From Planoprotostelium fungivorum (lineage: Eukaryota; Evosea; Variosea; Cavosteliida; Cavosteliaceae), in NCBI GenBank assembly GCA_003024175.1, contig MDYQ01000009.1, positions 186,001 to 250,000 on the forward strand: a stretch of DNA of 64,000 bases, written 5' to 3'. How positions within the stretch are numbered: the first letter of the stretch is position 1; every line of letters starts with the position of its first letter. Position numbers and translations under genes: made by a program. Positions 40,509 to 59,772 of the stretch are shown here, piece by piece. The notes beneath the pieces were generated by a model. It was not told where the DNA came from. It saw nothing but the letters and a program-made list of their open reading frames with translations, and ran no database searches.

Positions 40509-43500
40509 ATGTCGCAGCAAGCTGCCAGGTTACCTTTCCTGGATCCAAATAATGTGCGTGGAAAGTTCATACTCTCGCTAACGTACGGCAGCCTCTCTTG
40601 AAGAGAGTTCAGGATGCCCTCACACAGCAACTCACAAAGGCTAAATCGAGCATCAATTTACAAATCAAAGAGAAGGTGACGCAAGTTCTTCATCGTGGAT
40701 GATTGATGTGATGCAGGATGAAGCATTGAAGAAGGCCGCCGCAGCTCGAGATGATTTGGGAGCTGACTTATATAATGCTCAACAAGAGTTGGGGAGAATT
40801 CAGGCCGGCGTGCAGAAGCATCAGGAGCTGCACCTTAAGATGAAGCAATTGCGCGAGGAGTCCGAGCAGAAAGTGGAACAATACAAAAAGGCGCATCAAG
40901 CACAGGTGTCGAAAACCTTCGTTCATCATCACGAGCTGAACGCACAAAGTCCGATGCTGTCAGTGAAGAGAAGATGCGGCTAGATGCGATCCAAAAAGAA
41001 TACGAGAAACTGAACATCTCACTGGCACAATTGGAAGCAGACAGAGGGCAGCTGGATAGCAAATTGAAAGTGGAAAAGAGGGAAGCTTTCAAAGCGGACG
41101 AAGAGACGAACAAATTGGAGAAGGCTCGTTCTGAACAAGACACTATTGTAGACCGTCTGAACTCGTGAGATTGTTCATCATCTCACGGTCATTGAACGTT
41201 CATGAAGGGATGTGAAGTTTCTCGAGGACAAATTGGCACTGTTGGATGCCCAACTCCAAGCGCAGAAGAGAGAGACGAAATCAGCCGAAGAGACTCTAGC
41301 AGAGGCGGCGACCGAGATGGAGAACATTTATTTCGAAAAGAAGCAACTGCTTCAGAGGTGGAAGAGCAGTTTGACTGCCATAGCTCACCGTGACCAAGCT
41401 CTTCACGCCACACAACAGGAGCACACGTGAGTTCTTCTCTGGTGCATTCATCTGATGGCCCCACAGAAAGATGGTAGAAGAGCTGCAGGCTATGTCCGGT
41501 CAGGTGGCCAATTTCAAGAAGGCCATCGTGGCAGAGCAGGGCAAAAACGAGAACAACACGGTTATCTTGAACAAAGTGAACAGCGAGATCCAGTATTTGG
41601 AGAGAGGAATAGAGAAGAACAAAGCGATCAAAGAAAGCCTGATCGCAGACTTTGACGTGGTTCAGAAGACATTGGAGACGACAGAGGTCACCCTCACCAA
41701 GACTCAATCCGTGAGTCCATCCTTCGTACAATTCTTCGCTGACGAGATGCAGGAACGAAAGACGTTGGAGGAGCAGGTCAATTCTCTCCAAAGGGAAGGA
41801 GACAACATCGTCAACCAAACGATCAAATTGGAAGAGCAGGTGATCATCACCTTCATCACGCCACGCATCTGATCATCCGATAGATCGCCCAGAATCTGCA
41901 GATCCAGAAGACGTTGGAGAAGTCTGCCAGCAACACGGAACAAGGAGCCGTGAAGATTGGAGCGGGCATTCGCGACAAAGAGATGCAGATCTCTCAGCTT
42001 CAAAACGAGATGGCTCGTATCAAGGTTGATATACAGAGCACGAATGCTCGAGTGCTGCAAGTGAAGAAACAAGCGACGGAGGTGCAATCCAGCTTGGCGG
42101 AGAAGGACAAACTGGTGGAGGAATATGAGATGGGTATCAGGAAGAGGCACGACGCCATAGAGAGGAAGCAGTCGGAAGTCGATCGACTGAACAAGAGATA
42201 TGATCAGTTGATGTCGAACATTCAAGACGAGAACATGGGTCCATTAGAGGCCACCATACACAATCTCACGAACGAGATCGCCCAGAAGGATAAGGACTGC
42301 GCAGAGATTCAATACTATTGGCTAAAGAGGTGGTTATTCATTTCGTGTGCATTCTGAATCTCTCACAGTCAAATGGAATTGGTGAAGCACAACAAGGAGA
42401 TCGAGAAGGAGTTGGAGGAGTTGAAGGATTCTGAGCGTATGTACACTGTTCTGAACCAGAAGCAACTTCGCATCAAGAGCACGACGCAACAGAGGGAGGG
42501 AGACATCCGAGAGATAGAAGCCAGCATTCGATCCCTCCAGAATGACATGCAGAAACTGAACGCTCTCGTTGAGAAGAACGGAAAGATTCAGGCCCAGCTC
42601 ACGGAGGGCAATTTCGATTTAGAGAACGCCTTCCACACCCAATTGAAGCAGTCTGGATCGGAGGCTGTACAATTGGAGGGTAAGCTCAACACCATCCGCG
42701 AAGAGAAGCAGAATGTTCTCCACGACATCGTAGAAGCAGAGTGAGATGATTCCCTCCATAATATCATCTCATTTTCATGCAGACGATTGATGATCTTGTG
42801 GCAACGAAAGATCCAGTTGGCAAAGGAGACGAAAGAGGCTCTCGACCCCAACATCGGTGCATCTGAGCAGAAGGCTCTGAAGAAGGAGATTCAGAGAATG
42901 AGAAATGCTCTCGATCAGCTCAAGTGAGCATATGGTCCATCGAATCTCGCTTCTGAACTCTTCATAGGAAACAGAGCGAGCAATTTGTACTGGAATTGAC
43001 CCGCTGCGTGGAGAGAAGAGAATCGGTTATCGTGAGGTGAATGACGAACCGAATTGCATCGCATTGAATTTCATTGCAGAGACCCACAAACGAGAGCGAA
43101 ACACACGGCCGTGGCCAAGAATTTGGCTAACAGGAAATCTGAAGATGCTCAGAAGCAGATTCGGCTCGTGAAACANTCTGAGCAGAAGGCTCTGAAGAAG
43201 GAGATTCAGAGAATGAGAAATACTCTCGATCAGCTCAAGTGAGCATATTGTTCATCGAATCTTCCTTCTCAACTCTTCATAGGAAACAGAGCGAACAATT
43301 TGTACTGGAATTGACCCGCTGCGTGGAGAGAAGAGAATCGGTTATCGTGAGGTGAATGACGAACCGAATTGCATCGCATTGAATTTCATTGCAGAGACCC
43401 ACAAACGAGAGCGAAACACACGGCCGTGGCCAAGAATTTGGCTAACAGGAAATCTGAAGATGCTCAGAAGCAGATTCGGCTCGTGAAACAGAACATCAAC

Positions 43501-43927: not shown

Positions 43928-46078
43928 TTAGATGACCCACATTCTCATGAACTCGTCTACCTCGGTGGAGAGGAGCTTCTCTCTGTTCAGGCACAGATCG
44001 ATGATTCTCTTGGCGTGGGCGGTAGGGTACCTGTCTTCTTTCATCTTCTCTCCTCCCCTTCCCTCTCACCTGGTGGCAACGTTGTTCTGGAACTTCTCTA
44101 CCAAGAGGGGGATACCTTCTTGTCTGCGAAGTCTGTGCGTATATCAGAACGAGGTGTTCACACGAGAAGAATGACGATGTACCTGTGACCGACGGGGTAT
44201 TCGGCCTTGAAGATGGGGGTGGTGTAACCGTCCTTGAAGAAGACTTGAACATCGGAAGCCTGAGATCTCTTCTCGGGGTCGAGGTAGTCCACGCTGGATG
44301 TGGTCAGATGTCTCCCTGCTCTCCTGAGGCTCACCTGTATGGCTTGTGCTCGGAGATGGTCATCTTCTCTCTCAGGCGGTCGATCGATGGGTTGGCTGCG
44401 GCGAACTCGTCCGCGTAACTCTCGGCGACTAATCTTCCAAAGAGGAGACCCACGGCAGACATGTACTGGATGCAGTGATCTCTGTCCGCGTAGTTGGTCA
44501 GAGGTCCTCTCTTGTCGATGATACGCATGGCGGCCTGCTCTCTCGTCAATACGAGGGATTCAAGAGAGACTCCACCTCGTGCGTGTTGAAGCGAACCTCC
44601 TTGATGTCCTCTTCGGTCCATCCTGGCTTCTCCTTGTTGAGGAGGTCGTGAATCTTGATGGACATCTCCACGGCCGTCTGTCCGTGGAATTCTGCGGGGT
44701 AAGAGATCTTGAACAAGACGTTCTCCATGATGTAACTACCCAGATCCCTGTCCCTCCTTCAGCTCCAAATGTTCTCCACTCCTTCTCCACTGTTTCCTCA
44801 CCTCTCGAGGCCGAACTCTTGGCCCTTCAGAACGACGTCTTTGTAACCCCAGCCCTTGGTGGATACGACGGATGGATAACCTCTCTCTCCCTTGACGTGC
44901 ATCATGGCAAAGTTGACGGCACGAGAGGCGGCGTCGGCGGCGGCCCAGGATTTCCTCTCACCGGTGTTGGGGAAGTGTCTGTAGGTACGCATCGGTCCGT
45001 TGTCTACAATGGCGTTCGAGATGGCAGCAGACACCTGATGCGAGTGAGGAACGAGCGAAATTTCGATGGAATTGCACCTGCTCGATGTCGCCTCCCATCA
45101 TGGCGGTGACGGTGGCGGTACTGGCCAGCTTGACGAAGAACACGTGATCGATACCCAATCTGAACATAGATCAGTGACATATCTGAATGTCGTGAACCTC
45201 ACCGGTTGAGACTGTTGTCGATGGACAGTTGTCCTTGGATCTCGTAGGCCTTGATGCCGTACTGAAGCACATCACGGACGGTGAGGGGAGGGTTACCGGA
45301 CTGGGAGACGGAGACGGAATACTTTCTGTTCTTGTTGAGGTACTGAGAGGCAGCGAGGAGGGCTCCAAAGTTGTCGGAAGGGTGACCGAACTCTTTGGCC
45401 AAGAAAGTGTCGTTGTAATCCAACCATCGGATGAGAGTGGTGTTGTTCCAAGCTCCACGAACGGGATCTACTTCGTACTGTTGTGACGTCAGCATCGATG
45501 GTCAGGGTGGAAGAGGTGAGGTACCTGAGTACCGGGGACGTTGACGCTGCTGTGGTGGGGAACGACCGTTCCTGGGATGATGGGACCCAAGTGCTTGACG
45601 GCCTCGGGGTGTCTCAGTGCGAGGACGGCGCAACCTGAAATCGTCGAATGAGCTGAGTCGTCGTCTCTCGCTTCAAGTGGAGGGAATCTCACCGAGGGTA
45701 TCGAGAAGGGCGTAGTGAGCGGTTTCGTAGGCAACATCGGTCAACTTGATCTGTCGTAGCGATTAGAAGAGATGTGATTAGAGATATTGAAGGATTACCT
45801 TGTTGTCAACACTGTATTTGGCGATCTTTGTGATGATGGGATCGTATTCTGCTTCACGTCAGATGGATGTTATCGTTGAGAAAGAAGGTTGTTTACCCTG
45901 GTCGGTGCTGGTTGGGATGTGAGAAGACATTCTGTTGAAACGTACTGAAGGGCGCTGACGAAGAGAGATGGTCTAATCGAATACGTCAGACATCTTCTAG
46001 GTACCAATCGAACCGATATGATGAGGAGATTGTCACCTTCTGTGTTAGCTGAGCTAGTCTAGTTCCGGATACGAGCAT
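43928..46078 (-). CDS. prpD: 2-methylcitrate dehydratase (PrpD), mitochondrial
   Basis: About 510 residues over ten or so exons. The first exon (ATG 46078, [14 protein letters not shown]) joined to [13 protein letters not shown] forms an amphipathic, Arg-rich mitochondrial presequence. The body follows MmgE/PrpD family landmarks: [112 protein letters not shown] and [19 protein letters not shown]. PrpD dehydrates 2-methylcitrate to methylaconitate in propionate breakdown. The stop TAA is at 43928-43930, 35 bp from the CCDC40 stop. It is directly followed upstream by the citrate/methylcitrate synthase gene in the same orientation. Cis-aconitate decarboxylase belongs to the same superfamily but differs in these motifs; PrpD is preferred. 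Confidence 0.9.
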
Positions 46079-46361
46079 CTGTGAGCAGAAGGCCTTCTTG
46101 GACTCAAAGTCAAACTCCGTCTACAACTTGTATATTTTTTGACACGCACCTGTTCGGTTGGCTGGTCCTGGAAAAATGATTTCTCTTGGTCCAGCCTTGC
46201 ATAAACGGATGCAGCCTTGTCTACCAATATTATGTAGACATTTTACAAACCAGCAGCGCCTCGTCACTCGTCGACAGTGCTGTGACCATTCACAGAATTT
46301 TCCCACGATTAAAACGATTTCTCTCGATTTTACCAGAATTTTTATTCACTGTAGTTCGACT

Positions 46362-48089
46362 CTACTGTGCAGACATCATCTTCTCGATAGCGTTCAGGCT
46401 CAAAGATTTGGGACGCTCGATGGGCATGCCCAAAGCTCTGTCCCAGACGAGTTGAGGGAGCACACCGTACGCTCTGCTGATACCAAAGATCACGGTGTAG
46501 AACTCTGTCTCCTTCATTCCGTAGTGGTGCAGCAGCACTCCACTCTGAGAGTCCACGTTGGGGAACGGGTTCTTAGTCTTACCGTGCTCTTTCAACACCT
46601 ACAACCATCAGTCGATGATATATATCGCACGTGTTATTCTGTTCACCTGAGGTGCGACGCGGCTGACGATGTCTACGAGCTTCCAATGAGGGTCCTTGGA
46701 GATGCTGTCGGACTTGCTGGAGAACTCGTGGAGGGCGGTGAAGCGAGGATCGGGCTTACGCAGTACGGCGTGACCGTAACCTGGAACGACTCTGCCGTCC
46801 TTCAGCCAGTTCCACAAGTACTGTTCGACGTCCTTCTCGGTGTAGTTCTTGGGCAACCACTGGTGCATCTGTTCAAGTCGTCAGTAAACGACATGCAGTG
46901 GACGGCCTTGTATCACCTGCAGGATGAATCGGAGGACGTCTTGTGCGGCTAAACCGTGGAGAGGACCAGCTAAACCCAAAAGTCCGGCAGAATAAGAGAG
47001 GAAAGGGTCGCTCAATGCAGATCCCACCAGATCTAAAGAAGTGAGTCGATCGAACGCCGAGCGACGGACTCACGAGTGGAATGGGCGGAGACGTTACCTC
47101 CCTCGTGATCGGCGTGAAGTGCGAGGTATAGTCTCATCATCTCCACGAAGGGTAACTTATCTCCGAAGCCGATGTTCTCGGCAAAGTTCCACGTCACATC
47201 CTTGCTCTCGTCAGCCTTGTACACCTTGCTGACCCCTGTAACTCTGTCAGTCCAAGCAGGAGGATGTTACACGAAGAGTCACCCTTGGAGCGATTGTACA
47301 GCTTGGCGGCGATAGTGGGGATCTTAGCGAGGAGGCTGATGCTGTCATCGAAGGCGGGCTCCCAGAACTTGTCCTTCGTGATGCTACCGTCAGAGTACTG
47401 CTTTGAGAAGACTGAGTTGTGCGAGAGCGAAGCGATGGCGGCGGAGAGGGAGGTCATCGGGTGCATGTCTTTGGGTAGGTTGTCGATGAGCTCGTCCACG
47501 TGTCTCGGTAAGGCGGAGTGTCTCGCTAAATCAGCTGACAGGGCTCGAACTTGCTCTGAAGACTTCGTCAGCTACTCGGTCACGAAGATGAGACGAGATG
47601 ATGATCACTCACTCTCTGTAGGGACCTCTCCCGTCATGATCAGCCACATCATAGATTCGGGCAGCATCTGCGTCGCTCCTTGTTCGGGACCGTGAGGTAA
47701 GATGCGGTTGCACTCTTCGATAGTCTTTCCGTGGAATGTGATACCCTTCTCGGCGTCCAGTTCAGACCCTGCAAACGTTGTCATGTTCTTCATCATGGAC
47801 TTTTAGAGGACAGAAAGACCTACCTTCCCACCACATGCAGCGGATACCTCTCATACCTCCCAAGACTTGTTCGACGGTCGTCTGACCAATGACGCTGGCG
47901 GAGCTCTTCTTTATACGAGTCAGCTGCTCCCTCTTGTTGGGTATGTATTTCTCCCTCATTAGATTCTTCAATTCGGTGGAGCTGAAGCGGATATTCTGTT
48001 GAAAAAAGATGGTCAGTCATGTAAAACAGACCCGGCCTCTTAGAGCTCACCTTCTGCGAAGAGATACGAAGAGAGACACGAGACAGCAT
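46362..48089 (-). CDS. Citrate synthase family: mitochondrial citrate or 2-methylcitrate synthase
   Basis: Start ATG 48089 ([13 protein letters not shown]) with an intron and then NIRFSS make a typical mitochondrial presequence. The eukaryotic citrate synthase fold follows: [27 protein letters not shown]-type [84 protein letters not shown] and [17 protein letters not shown]. The catalytic His, His and Asp are present in the last four of these. About 465 residues, usual length. Sequence alone cannot tell citrate synthase from the fungal type of 2-methylcitrate synthase, which evolved from it. Its position between PrpD and PrpB favours methylcitrate synthase (oxaloacetate plus propionyl-CoA), by inference. 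Confidence 0.92.
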
Positions 48090-48396
48090 CTGGACCTTGT
48101 GTTGGGCTGTTGTTGGTCTGTAAATCGAACAATAGGAGTCACATTTGTGAGGGTGAGGCCTCGCCGTGACAACTTGTATTGCCGACTTCCGATGCCAATG
48201 CGATGAAACGGTCTCCGTTTCTGATTTTATGTCGACGTTAATTAGCAATATTTGTCCGCAACCACGAAATGCGCCATGACGATCTATGTCTACATTCATA
48301 TTTACCCCGAATTGGGTAAGGGAATGTCGACTGTTTTCAACCCTTTGAAACGCTCATCGCAATGAAAATTACAAGGAGGAAGGAACATTTCGAAAC
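48090..48396. promoter_or_regulatory. Divergent promoter of the methylcitrate cluster
   Basis: 307 bp between the synthase (minus) and PrpB (plus) start codons. It should contain both promoters and could co-regulate them. No strong palindrome or TATA box stands out. Confidence 0.4.
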
Positions 48397-49567
48397 ATGG
48401 CGGCGAGACTGGCATCACCTGGAACTCTCTTTCGTACGGCAGTGAAGGTTAACAAACCGTTACAGATCCCTGGTGCCGTGAATGCATACACTGCCATGCT
48501 CGCTGAGCACTCGGGTGATGTCTTTTTAATGGACGTCTCCTCTCTAACAGAAGAAAGGTTTTCACGCCTTATATCTCTCCGGAAGTGGTGTCGCTGCTGC
48601 ATCTTACGGGTAACTGATTACGATTGCCATTGCAATCTCAGAGATGATTAAACCTCGACAGACTTCCCGATCTCGGCATCACGTCCCTGAATGACGTCGT
48701 GGAAGATGTGAGACGCATCACCAGAGCTTGCAAATTACCCCTCCTGGTTGACATTGACACTGGGTTCGGACCTACCGCCTTCCACATCAAGAGAGCCGTG
48801 CAAGAGATCGAAGCCGCCGGTGCTGCTGCCGTTCATTTGGAAGATCAGGCTTCCGTCAAGCGTTGTGGACACAGACCCAATAAGGTAATGACGTTGTTCC
48901 CTACAATAGTTAAAAATCGTCCAGCAAATCGTCCCCGAAGATGAGATGGTGGACCGAATCAGAGCAGCCGTGGATGGAAGAACAGACCCGAACTTTGTCA
49001 TCATGGCCAGAACGGATGCCCTTGCCAACGAAGGTGAGTGAGCTAAACCCATTCCGCCATCTCTTCTCAAGGTTAAACCGCGAGCAGGCATCGATAGCGC
49101 CCTGAAGAGATCAAAGGCTTACATCGCCGCTGGTGCTGACATGCTCTTTCCTGAAGCTCTGAACGAGCTGTCTCAGTACAAGATATTCTCCGATGCCCTT
49201 CCCGGTGTACCGAGTGCGTATATCTTCTCTCTTCACTCGACTCATCCCTCCAGTCTTGGCCAACATCACCGAATTTGGAAAGACACCCATGTTCACCACC
49301 GAAGAGCTCGCAGGTGACCATTTTAATCCGTTTTATTCTCTTCATATGCTAACACACGAGACAGGAGTCGGTGTTGGAATGGTACTCTACCCTCTATCGG
49401 CCTTCCGAGCACAGAGTGCAGCGGCGCTGAAGGTGTACGATGCCATTCGAGACAAGGGAACACAGTCAGATGTTCTATCCATCATGCAGACCCGAGAAGA
49501 GCTGTACCAGCACCTGGGCTACCACGCCTACGAAGAGAAGATGGATGCCTTGTTTGGAAAGAAATAA
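48397..49567 (+). CDS. prpB: 2-methylisocitrate lyase (PrpB), ICL/PEP-mutase family
   Basis: Six exons encode about 300 residues. The start ATG 48397 gives [18 protein letters not shown], an Arg-rich presequence-like end, then [19 protein letters not shown]. Family landmarks: [48 protein letters not shown] (metal-site region), [11 protein letters not shown], the catalytic loop [56 protein letters not shown] and [18 protein letters not shown]. The KRCGH loop, DTGFG and overall length point to 2-methylisocitrate lyase of the bacterial PrpB type rather than the longer isocitrate lyase. It splits 2-methylisocitrate to pyruvate and succinate. It is divergent from the synthase and completes a three-gene propionate set. 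Confidence 0.93.
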
Positions 49568-49601: not shown

Positions 49602-51171
49602 TCATAAGTGGTGAGGAATCAGTCTTGATACGGAGTCGAGAGTGGGTGAGGAGTACTTTCTGTACAGTGCATCGCGCATGACCTCCTCGTTGTTGATTGG
49701 CTCTCTCTGTTGGCTCATAAAGGATTCGTAGAGTCGCATGCCCGCGGTGTATAGGTCGTCTCTGCTGTATCCCGTGGAGTAGACCATCCTCGGTGGCTGT
49801 CTCACGTCAGCATCTCATCGTGATCGGATGATGGATGTCTCACCCATGGATTTCTAACCCCCAACATTCTTTGGGATGCGTAGATGGCAGCGGCTGCGAC
49901 GAGAGAGGGTCTCAGCAGTCGGTTTTCAACGGAGAGGGTAGAGAGCTCGCATAAATATTTGGATAGATTGTAGCCCATACGGCTGATGTTGGCCTCTTCA
50001 GAGAATGCCCTGAGGAAGTCGAGGGGGTGGATTCGGTTGATTCTGTCGTGAGGATGAGTTGGAGGAGACGAGATGAGATGAGATGGACCATGACTCGATG
50101 TGGATGTGATGTGAGAAGAGGTGCTTACCTGAACTGGATGGTGCCGAGGACCATCACTTCCATGGTGCGGATGATATTGGGAGTGTATGCGTTATCGCAG
50201 ATGGAGTTGAGCTCTTGAATGGTGGGTGATCTGCCCTGCTCGAACTTGAGGGCGAGAGATACGGCTACGACGGCGAGCAATTGGAACTCGTTCCTAAATC
50301 ATGTGGTGAGATGTTTGAAGATGGACATCCATCATCAACACCTCTTCGTGTTCTTTCGGATAGACAAGAAGTGATCGATGATTCCGATGCACAAGAAGAA
50401 GGTCTCATTGACGCATCGGAACTCGCAGCAGACATCGACCACCCAATCCACTAGGACCTCTCGATCGTCGTGGGTTAGCTCTGTCTGTCCCATCATGAAG
50501 TCCTCTTCTACCATCTGTTCGACCTGAGAAATGGCTTAGCACATAGGGGATTCGAGAAGGGTGCGAATCCGTAATTGAGGTATGAGAACAAAAGCGAGTC
50601 AAGATAAAAGCCACCTCTCGCTCGGCTAAGTATTCCGAAATGTCAAGGGGTTCATCCCGAAGAGGAATGAACGACTCGCAGAACCCTGTTGCCGAGAGAT
50701 CTTGTTCCGCCTCTTCCAGTGTGATTTGGCTTCCAGCGGGCAGAAGAGGTTGAGAAGACTCGACGGTCTCTTCACAAGTCTCCTCACAAGTCTCTTCACA
50801 GGCGAGGATGCTCTCGTAGTCCTCTGGGTGTATGGAGTTGTGTGGAGAGCATTTAGCTGTTTTAAAGGTGAGCACGTCATCAGCTGACAGATAGCCACCG
50901 CACCTTCGTTCCTAGGTTTTCCTGATGTTTCTGAGGTCGATCGAGCTACTTCAGGCTGCTCTTGTACGTTGTTCGATCTGGGTACGTTGGGGTTCAGCAC
51001 TCCGAGCGGTCGTCTCCTTTCTTCATCTTGTCCATCTCCAATTCTTGCGTCTTCCTCTGACCTATCGAATCGTTGAGAGATAGGATTGTGAGATGATATG
51101 TACTTGTACGATTTGCTGGGTCGCTCTTCGCATTCACTGCGGAGATGAGATCCTGTTCTCTTGCCATCCAT
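49602..51171 (-). CDS. Mitotic A/B-type cyclin
   Basis: From ATG 51171 (MDGKRTGSHLRSECEERP) the N-terminus carries a destruction-box-like RRPLGVLNPN (R-x-x-L pattern as in cyclins A and B) and a run of CEET units (ACEETCEETCEETVESS). A YLAERE-type stretch and the cyclin N box follow: DDREVLVDWVVDVCCEF, then NETFFLCIGIIDHFLSI, LLAVVAVSLALKFEQ, TPNIIRTMEVMVL and IHPLDFLRAFS. The C-terminal cyclin lobe includes LCELSTLSVENRLLRPSLVA and AAAAIYASQRMLGVRNPW. About 440 residues with at least six introns, ending at 49602. It should activate a CDK at mitosis and be destroyed through the APC. Cyclin A versus B cannot be settled by eye. Confidence 0.85.
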
Positions 51172-51616: not shown

Positions 51617-53894
<2,278 letters not shown>

Positions 53895-57913: not shown

Positions 57914-59772
57914 TGTCTTCTCTTCAAGCTTGTATTAGGGGCGGCGCTGACTGCCTCAAGACTTGTCAGCTGGCCAGAATGGCTGCCGCCCGTCCAGGAG
58001 CCACCAACATTTCACTTGCAGGAATGCAAGAGAAGCCCCTGCGTATGTTCGCAGACGCCTATCAGGATATGTGCCCCTTCTTGAAAAATGGTCTATCTAA
58101 GATCACCTCGAAAGACGCAGAAAACGTAAGACATCTTCGAATCACGCTCACCCTTTCGAGTCTCTTGGAGGCTAAAAATCAAGTTACTAAACCCTCTTTC
58201 AGTTCCAAGTGAAATGCCCCTTTGGTAAGGCATTCACTGAGGCAGAGAAGACCCGCACAGAACAATCACAACTGTGTGCCTTGAACCAAGTTTCTATTGC
58301 CAAGAGTGAGTCCGCCACGCCCACGTGGATGATTCCCATTTTGATTCTTATGATTATGTAGGCACTCATTCGCCCCTCTTGAGGGTCACCTCTGACAAGT
58401 TGAAGACTGCTCTGCCCAACTTGACCGTCAAGGAACAGCTCACCAAGAACTTCTTCACCGATGTCCTCGAGCGTATGAAGGTGGAGGGTAACTACCGCAA
58501 GTTCAACCACATTGACAGAAAGGTGACTGATCACCTCCCTCATTTTTCTCATCACGATCAGGTCGGTTCATTTCCCAGAGCAGATAACCGATTGGACATT
58601 CGTCCCTCCCACATCACTCCCTCCCAGACCTGGAACGAGACCGTACAGAGGAACATCACCGTATGGTGTAACAACGATTACCTCGGCATGGGACAACACC
58701 CCGTCGTCACCTCCGCTATGAAGGAGGCCATCGACACCTTTGGCGCCGGCTCTGGAGGCACCCGAAACATCAGCGGCACCAACAGCTTGCACGTCCTCCT
58801 CGAGAGAGAATTCGCCGATCTCCACCAGAAGGTGATCCGCAATGACATCATCACAGACTGAAGACGAGACAGGAATCGGCCATCCTCTTCAGCTCGTGCT
58901 ACACCGCCAACGCCAGCATGATCCCCACCCTCATCAAGATGTTGCCCAAGGGAACGACCATCTTCTCTGACGCCAAGAACCACGCCTCCCTCATCGAGGG
59001 AATCCGCAACTCGGGTGCCAACAAGGTCGTCTTCCGTCACAACGACGTAGCCCACCTGGAGGAATGCCTCAAGAACTGCGATCCCGATGTGCCCAAGATC
59101 ATCATCTTCGAGTCGGTCTACTCCATGGACGGAACCATCTCCCCCATCGAGAAGATCTGCGACCTCGCAGACAAGTACAACGCCTTCACCATCCTCGATG
59201 AAGTCCACGCCGTCGGTCTCTACGGTCCCAGGGGTGGTGGCATCGCAGAGGAGTTGAACCTCATGGACCGAGTGGACATCATCACTGGCACTCTGGGTAA
59301 GGCCTACGGATTGTACGGAGGCTTCATCACCGGAACGGCCCCCATCATCGACTCCATCCGATCCTTCGCGGGTGGTTTCATCTTCACGACTTCTCTTCCC
59401 CCTGCCATTGTGGGTGGTGCCCTGGCTTCCGTTCGGTACCTGAAGGAGAGCAACGAGGAGAGGGACAGGCAGAGGTTCAACTCGGCCTACCTGAAGAGGA
59501 GACTGGCTGAGGAGGGCCTGCCCGTGATGGAGTCACCCTCTCACATCGTTCCCCTCTTGGTCGGTGACTCGAAGCTGTGCAGGAGCATGAGCGATCTGCT
59601 CTTGGAGAAGTACAGCCTCTACGCCCAGCCCATCAACTACCCCACCGTTGCCAAGGGAACGGAGAGGTTCAGATTGACCCCCACACCCCTGCACAGCGTG
59701 GAGGACATGGAGTATCTCATCCACTCTCTCAAGGAGTGCTGGGATCACTTTGGTGTCCCCCTCAGATTATAA
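57914..59772 (+). CDS. ALAS: 5-aminolevulinate synthase (ALAS)
   Basis: PLP-dependent alpha-oxoamine synthase that joins glycine and succinyl-CoA, the first step of heme synthesis in mitochondria. From ATG 57914 ([20 protein letters not shown]) the N-terminal region holds two Cys-Pro motifs, MCPFLKN and KCPFGKAF, like the heme regulatory motifs of animal ALAS. The catalytic core follows: [85 protein letters not shown], the PLP lysine in [14 protein letters not shown], and [17 protein letters not shown]. The GTRNISG and [10 protein letters not shown] motifs separate ALAS from KBL and SPT. About 565 residues in six exons. The presequence is less basic than usual at its very start. Confidence 0.94.

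Follow-up and report, generated by a model that had tools for sequence, protein, structure and literature searches.

The DNA analysed here, referred to as the window, comprises 64,000 nucleotides of Planoprotostelium fungivorum and corresponds to bases 186001-250000 of contig 21 in the numbering of the assembly, which holds 36.9 Mb in 471 contigs. At 43928-49567 of the window a predicted 2-methylcitrate dehydratase (PrpD), a homologue of citrate synthase and a predicted 2-methylisocitrate lyase of the PEP-mutase/PrpB type (PrpB) are encoded contiguously within 5.6 kb. The prpD gene occupies 43928-46078 on the minus strand; its spliced model has 13 exons and 12 introns and codes for 518 amino acids (aa). 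The synthase gene, called mcs after its most likely product, a mitochondrial-type 2-methylcitrate synthase, lies at 46362-48089 on the same strand (8 exons, 7 introns, 458 aa). The prpB gene, at 48397-49567 on the plus strand, is divergent from mcs (7 exons, 6 introns, 296 aa).

Each of the three spliced models forms a single open frame with one terminal stop, and all 25 introns are bounded by GT-AG and measure 39-82 nucleotides (nt). The less certain junctions are those of PrpB intron 1, which has an AAAG acceptor and alternative in-frame choices, and of the first exon of PrpD (46037-46078). The preliminary description of this DNA had placed the three genes side by side, with introns in each and with the synthase and PrpB diverging across 307 bp. 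The spliced models and family matches bear out this arrangement down to the measured gap of 307 bp; the three-gene cluster is confirmed as an observation. Beyond PrpB, frames on the minus strand encode a cyclin N-terminal domain (50335-50535) and an MLLE domain of the kind present in poly(A)-binding proteins (51620-52408). Because all three genes carry short introns and these neighbours encode cyclin and MLLE domains, we consider contamination unlikely.

PrpD scored 650.2 bits with the NCBIfam profile TIGR02330, which has an equivalog cut-off of 458, and covered positions 1-468 of its 468 positions. The protein contains the Pfam domains MmgE_PrpD_N and MmgE_PrpD_C and shares 52-53% identity with three solved PrpDs from bacteria. 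In a search of the whole assembly, where the counts are lower bounds for large families, PrpD-family matches occurred at one place only, the cluster. A scan of viral contigs with the PrpD alignment yielded 76 stretches matching a pattern, none of which encoded a relative.

PrpB reached 405.5 bits with NCBIfam TIGR02317 (equivalog cut-off 354.4) and 481.9 bits with PRK11320 (cut-off 353), and carries the Pfam domain PEP_mutase. In the alignment to the two best solved PrpBs its stretch KRCGHRPNK lies opposite the same residues, with KRCGH kept; we take KRCGH to be the catalytic signature of PrpB. Two places in the genome matched the PEP-mutase family, the cluster and contig 149, the latter with the single strong isocitrate lyase (ICL) locus at 381.8 and 274.3 bits. 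Because the other match is this ICL locus, the cluster PrpB appears to be the sole candidate among these matches for a lyase dedicated to methylisocitrate, and a fungal-style ICL2 seems to be absent besides the single ICL locus.

The synthase carries the Pfam domain Citrate_synt. It might be the ordinary citrate synthase of the tricarboxylic acid (TCA) cycle, lying by chance between prpD and prpB, in which case the locus would hold two pathway genes only. In agreement with this, its type is that of the mitochondrial citrate synthases of eukaryotes, with 553.1 bits for TIGR01793 (cit_synth_euk); yet this score is below the cut-off of 619.75 bits for the eukaryotic Si-citrate synthase equivalog. 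With TIGR01800, the profile of bacterial type II PrpC, it scored 140.1 bits, far below the cut-off of 421.3. The five best distinct matches in the Protein Data Bank (PDB) were all named "2-methylcitrate synthase, mitochondrial" with 534.9-539.5 bits, and citrate synthases reached at most 490.6 bits. The solved mitochondrial 2-methylcitrate synthase is presumably the enzyme of Aspergillus fumigatus. Identity to it was 57.4% versus 46.4-52.6% to four citrate synthases, that of contig 461 included. At 15 aligned columns the window protein shares a residue with the methylcitrate synthase where the four citrate synthases have another one in common; at 8 columns the opposite holds, and the window protein resembles citrate synthases but not the solved methylcitrate synthase, which speaks for a TCA enzyme. 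A tree of six rows paired the window synthase with the solved methylcitrate synthase (100/100) and placed the contig-461 protein and three solved citrate synthases opposite (100/100). The synthase thereby groups as an enzyme of the fungal McsA type, with the characterised methylcitrate synthase and apart from the citrate synthases.

The genome search for the citrate-synthase family gave matches at four places, on contigs 21, 461, 1 and 208. The paralogue on contig 461 showed the opposite preference to the cluster synthase, with 619.4 bits to citrate synthase and 482.5 bits to methylcitrate synthase, and judged by these matches it is the canonical mitochondrial citrate synthase. Judged by the translations, contig 1 appears to encode a citrate synthase of the bacterial or peroxisomal type and contig 208 an ATP-citrate lyase. 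The preliminary description had set a search for a second citrate synthase as a test, with its absence speaking for a TCA enzyme in the cluster; the copy on contig 461 is such a second synthase. Because the cluster synthase pairs with the solved methylcitrate synthase and a canonical citrate synthase is encoded on contig 461, it is most likely a methylcitrate synthase, with the substrate preference predicted accordingly from its relatives. An ordinary TCA synthase at this position is highly improbable. A 269-aa stop-to-stop frame runs antisense to the 3' end of the synthase gene (46143-46952, plus strand) and probably arose by chance.

Taken together, the window very probably carries the genes of a eukaryotic 2-methylcitrate cycle in one compact cluster, with a predicted substrate preference, a predicted mitochondrial location and presumable co-regulation. 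The synthase would convert propionyl-CoA and oxaloacetate to 2-methylcitrate, which PrpD would dehydrate; an assumed aconitase would rehydrate the product of PrpD, and PrpB would split 2-methylisocitrate into succinate and pyruvate. Such a cluster would serve the cobalamin-independent use or the detoxification of propionyl-CoA, e.g. from odd-chain fat or branched-chain amino acids.

The preliminary description had claimed clear mitochondrial presequences in at least two of the proteins. The claim is less firm than that. The synthase has a basic N-terminus and a well-placed start. The presequence of PrpD hangs on the first exon; if that exon is right, the N-terminus is basic as well. Met23 of PrpD falls opposite Met1 in two of the four solved PrpDs. 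The N-terminus of PrpB is of similar character. A mitochondrial location of the proteins is a prediction.

Several points weigh against our interpretation. Methylcitrate synthases may also accept acetyl-CoA, therefore the specificity of the synthase is a matter of degree, and among the six rows of the tree there is one characterised methylcitrate synthase. At its N-terminus, PrpB does not reach beyond its best solved match. Its first 25 residues have a net charge of +4 and no acidic residue, as in a minority of bacterial PrpBs: among 47 of 68 bacterial proteins, the rest having no Met near the match start or containing other letters, the net charge was at least +3 in 9 and acidic residues were lacking in 6. 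Given these bacterial look-alikes, mitochondrial targeting of PrpB was not deduced from charge and amphipathicity. In addition, the PrpB of T. gondii was cytosolic by fractionation (PMC3593168).

The three genes are physically linked and, since they belong to three different families, are not duplicates of one another, as is asked of a eukaryotic metabolic gene cluster. The adjacency could be an accident of the lineage that has no regulatory meaning. With N genes in the genome the chance adjacency of three named single-copy genes would be about 6/N^2, i.e. less than 1e-7 for the approximately 10,000 genes that we assumed and did not count, and for members of one short pathway it would be very unlikely. 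Clusters of the same pathway also exist in fungi (PMC7324963, PMC5773181).

On the regulatory side, the 307 bp between mcs and prpB (48090-48396) form a candidate bidirectional promoter through which the divergent genes may be co-regulated, and 283 bp (46079-46361) separate the mcs stop from the prpD start. Both intergenic regions contain ACAACTTGTAT, at 46123 and 48169 on the plus strand, approximately 45 and 80 bp before the start codons of PrpD and the synthase, respectively. They also have ATGTAGACAT (46232) in common. The sharing of words between the regions was reached by resampled sequences in 8 of 500 cases for the three 10-mers, in 7 of 500 for 9-mers and in 33 of 500 for 8-mers. Exact matches of ACAACTTGTAT and ATGTAGACAT within the window were confined to these two regions. 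With one mismatch allowed, ACAACTTGTAT had 3 matches in the window compared with 0.79 expected, a number reached in 5 of 100 shuffles; ATGTAGACAT showed no excess (3 matches, 4.30 expected). Among the scanned loci of the genome itself (L001-L026 and from L144 on), the two 10-letter words occurred exclusively in those that cover the cluster. Found post hoc, the shared 10-11-mers give a weak hint of a promoter motif, and this weakness is what an accidental adjacency has in its favor. Considering the estimate for chance adjacency and the fungal parallels, we regard such an accident as improbable.

In S. cerevisiae, CIT3 lies next to PDH1, and ICL2 is not far away. In Paracoccidioides a single chromosomal region of about 22 kb contains the three dedicated genes, with mcl and mcs adjacent and mcd 16 kb away, and the synthase is predicted to be mitochondrial, as in our case (PMC7324963). 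In contrast to the contiguous 5.6 kb of the window, six or seven unrelated genes lie between mcd and mcs there (PMC7324963). In Kluyveromyces marxianus, CIT3 is next to PDH1, the genes ICL2 and FOX2 are located nearby, and CIT3, PDH1 and ICL2 are up-regulated on xylose (PMC5773181). The adjacency of synthase and dehydratase genes resembles the window, whereas the lyase is ICL2 instead of PrpB and the three genes are not contiguous (PMC5773181). On the other hand, such synteny was lacking in Batrachochytrium and Mucor, according to a report that lists Dikarya, choanoflagellates and Metazoa as having the three cycle enzymes (PMC8085122). The statement of the preliminary description that these genes are usually scattered in fungi is therefore contradicted by the Paracoccidioides and K. 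marxianus clusters, with Batrachochytrium and Mucor as cases that lack synteny.

According to a study of alveolates, ICL is the most likely source of the fungal methylisocitrate lyases, and fungal PrpDs have a group of bacterial PrpDs as their nearest neighbours (PMC3593168). The alveolate lyase is of the PrpB type, for which the authors argue acquisition by horizontal transfer, and the cycle of T. gondii is split between cytosol and mitochondrion (PMC3593168). The PrpB/PrpC/PrpD set of T. gondii thus resembles the window in having a PrpB-type lyase in a eukaryote; no clustering is mentioned in the sections of the study considered here, and the alveolate PrpD clade stands apart from the group with the fungal PrpDs (PMC3593168). 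The PrpD of the window, in contrast, matches the TIGR02330 equivalog. With the bacterial prpBCD operon the window shares the same three steps and the equivalog families of PrpB and PrpD. Unlike the operon, it has introns in all three genes, one gene that runs divergently, and no type II PrpC beside PrpB and PrpD; the proteins similar to citrate synthase (CS-like) that the sampled bacterial loci encode have 21.6-29.1% identity with the window synthase. Among the titles and abstract openings listed in a literature search, with subscription papers mostly outside, none reported a contiguous three-gene eukaryotic cluster with a PrpB-type lyase. The locus is unusual for its three contiguous genes, in which a fungal-like synthase is joined to PrpB and PrpD. 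As fungal clusters are already known and the last enzyme here is of the bacterial PrpB kind, we regard it as an uncommon mixture and not as a new system: a real cluster of known enzymes that is unusually compact and mixed for a eukaryotic methylcitrate cycle.

The mixture raises the question of origin. The preliminary description had seen a eukaryotic-looking synthase beside bacterial-looking PrpB and PrpD, in accordance with the mitochondrial type of the former and the equivalog matches of the latter. Possibly, prpB and prpD as a pair, or an entire bacterial prpBCD operon, arrived in a single transfer and gained introns later, the eukaryotic synthase then replacing the bacterial prpC. Among 80 bacterial prpD loci, the best of 583 matches, a set that may miss nearer bacterial PrpDs, 68 had a PrpB match above 200 bits in the fetched flanks (26 below and 42 above 50% identity), which is compatible with such a transfer. 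The other 12 had none, some of them being on short contigs and L103 having a partial match of 156 bits. CS-like matches were present at 61 of the 80 loci. Because of their low identity to the window synthase stated above, the synthase does not stem from such an operon, and this counts against a single transfer of the three genes.

By tblastn, the window PrpD is 48.3-56.1% identical to the PrpDs of these 80 loci, and the best matches come from different lineages, namely Paenibacillus and other Bacilli, Poribacteria and Kangiella. In the PrpD tree with all 80 bacterial rows the window sequence stands alone on a long branch. Grouping it with six Vibrionaceae PrpDs was rejected (p-AU 0.00126; 0.000544 in a variant with seven Vibrionaceae rows), while grouping the six alone was not (p-AU 0.276); long branches can mislead in such tests. 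A Vibrionaceae origin of PrpD was thus discarded, and since this is the family of the nearest neighbours of PrpB, the result also argues against a joint transfer.

PrpB reaches 67% identity to proteins of Gammaproteobacteria, among them those of Enterovibrio and Aliivibrio, which would suit a single transfer as well. Of 369 genomes sampled from the class to which Enterovibrio belongs, 115 matched PrpB at E <= 1e-80, many at 60-67% identity, with loci kept for the best 30 matches. A tree of 79 rows placed PrpB with Enterovibrio and Aliivibrio (92/93, node unstarred). Of the Bacillus-type rows 22 of 26 were left out and 4 kept as outgroup; L107, L108 and L111, which repeat included loci, and L113 and L114, weak non-PrpB matches, were omitted. 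A position of PrpB outside all ingroup bacteria was not rejected (p-AU 0.497), so that a joint origin of PrpB and PrpD from an old or unsampled lineage is conceivable. Given the unstarred node and this placement, we did not adopt the claim of two donors for PrpB and PrpD. Both are of bacterial type with no recent donor visible, and different donors are not proven. That the cluster was assembled from several sources, as the preliminary description suggested, is plausible where the synthase is set against PrpB and PrpD, and not proven for PrpB versus PrpD.

The intron load of PrpB and PrpD is similar to that of the eukaryotic-type synthase, which argues for long residence. We regard entry by one transfer as rather unlikely. 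Put forward tentatively, as less likely than not, is an assembly inside the eukaryote: a duplicated mitochondrial citrate synthase would have turned into a methylcitrate synthase and joined bacterial-type PrpD and PrpB of separate histories, so that the prpBCD linkage was rebuilt de novo in Amoebozoa with a shared divergent promoter. Two types of PrpB occur within one phylum: 26 of the loci L027-L106, all from Bacilli, encode after prpD a PrpB-like protein 41-48% identical to the window PrpB, and four Paenibacillus loci have a PrpB of 59-63% identity before prpD.

Exons of methylmalonyl-CoA mutase were found on contig 246 with one weaker piece on contig 242; several carboxyltransferase loci are also present in the genome. 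With this mutase encoded as well, the cycle would provide a second route for propionyl-CoA that does not depend on B12. To the fungal methylcitrate-cycle clusters already known, the window adds a compact one from what is probably an amoebozoan. Its fungal-like synthase is combined with a lyase of the PrpB type, which the literature considered here describes among eukaryotes for alveolates (PMC3593168). Should relatives share the arrangement, it would serve as a tractable case of convergent clustering in a short pathway, and of a eukaryote equipped with both B12-dependent and B12-independent propionate routes.

Downstream of PrpD, at 42862-43476, coiled-coil-like frames contain a direct duplication of 300 nt, 98% identical at a spacing of 315 nt. 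The only N of the window lies between the copies at 43176, and the duplication is possibly an assembly artefact. A long open frame at 58846-59772 on the plus strand has an Aminotran_1_2 domain and reads like 5-aminolevulinate synthase. Elsewhere, the genome holds many myosin loci. One myosin II exon of 167 aa, on contig 173, reached 250-254 bits with a group of myosin-2 motor structures, presumably those of Dictyostelium, and at most 203.5 bits with the other myosins among the best 60 of 120 matches; this single exon points to a probable amoebozoan. Contigs 35 and 112, and likewise 51 and 312, carry paired loci whose scores for myosin and carboxyltransferase are equal or almost so, perhaps separated haplotypes or recent duplications.

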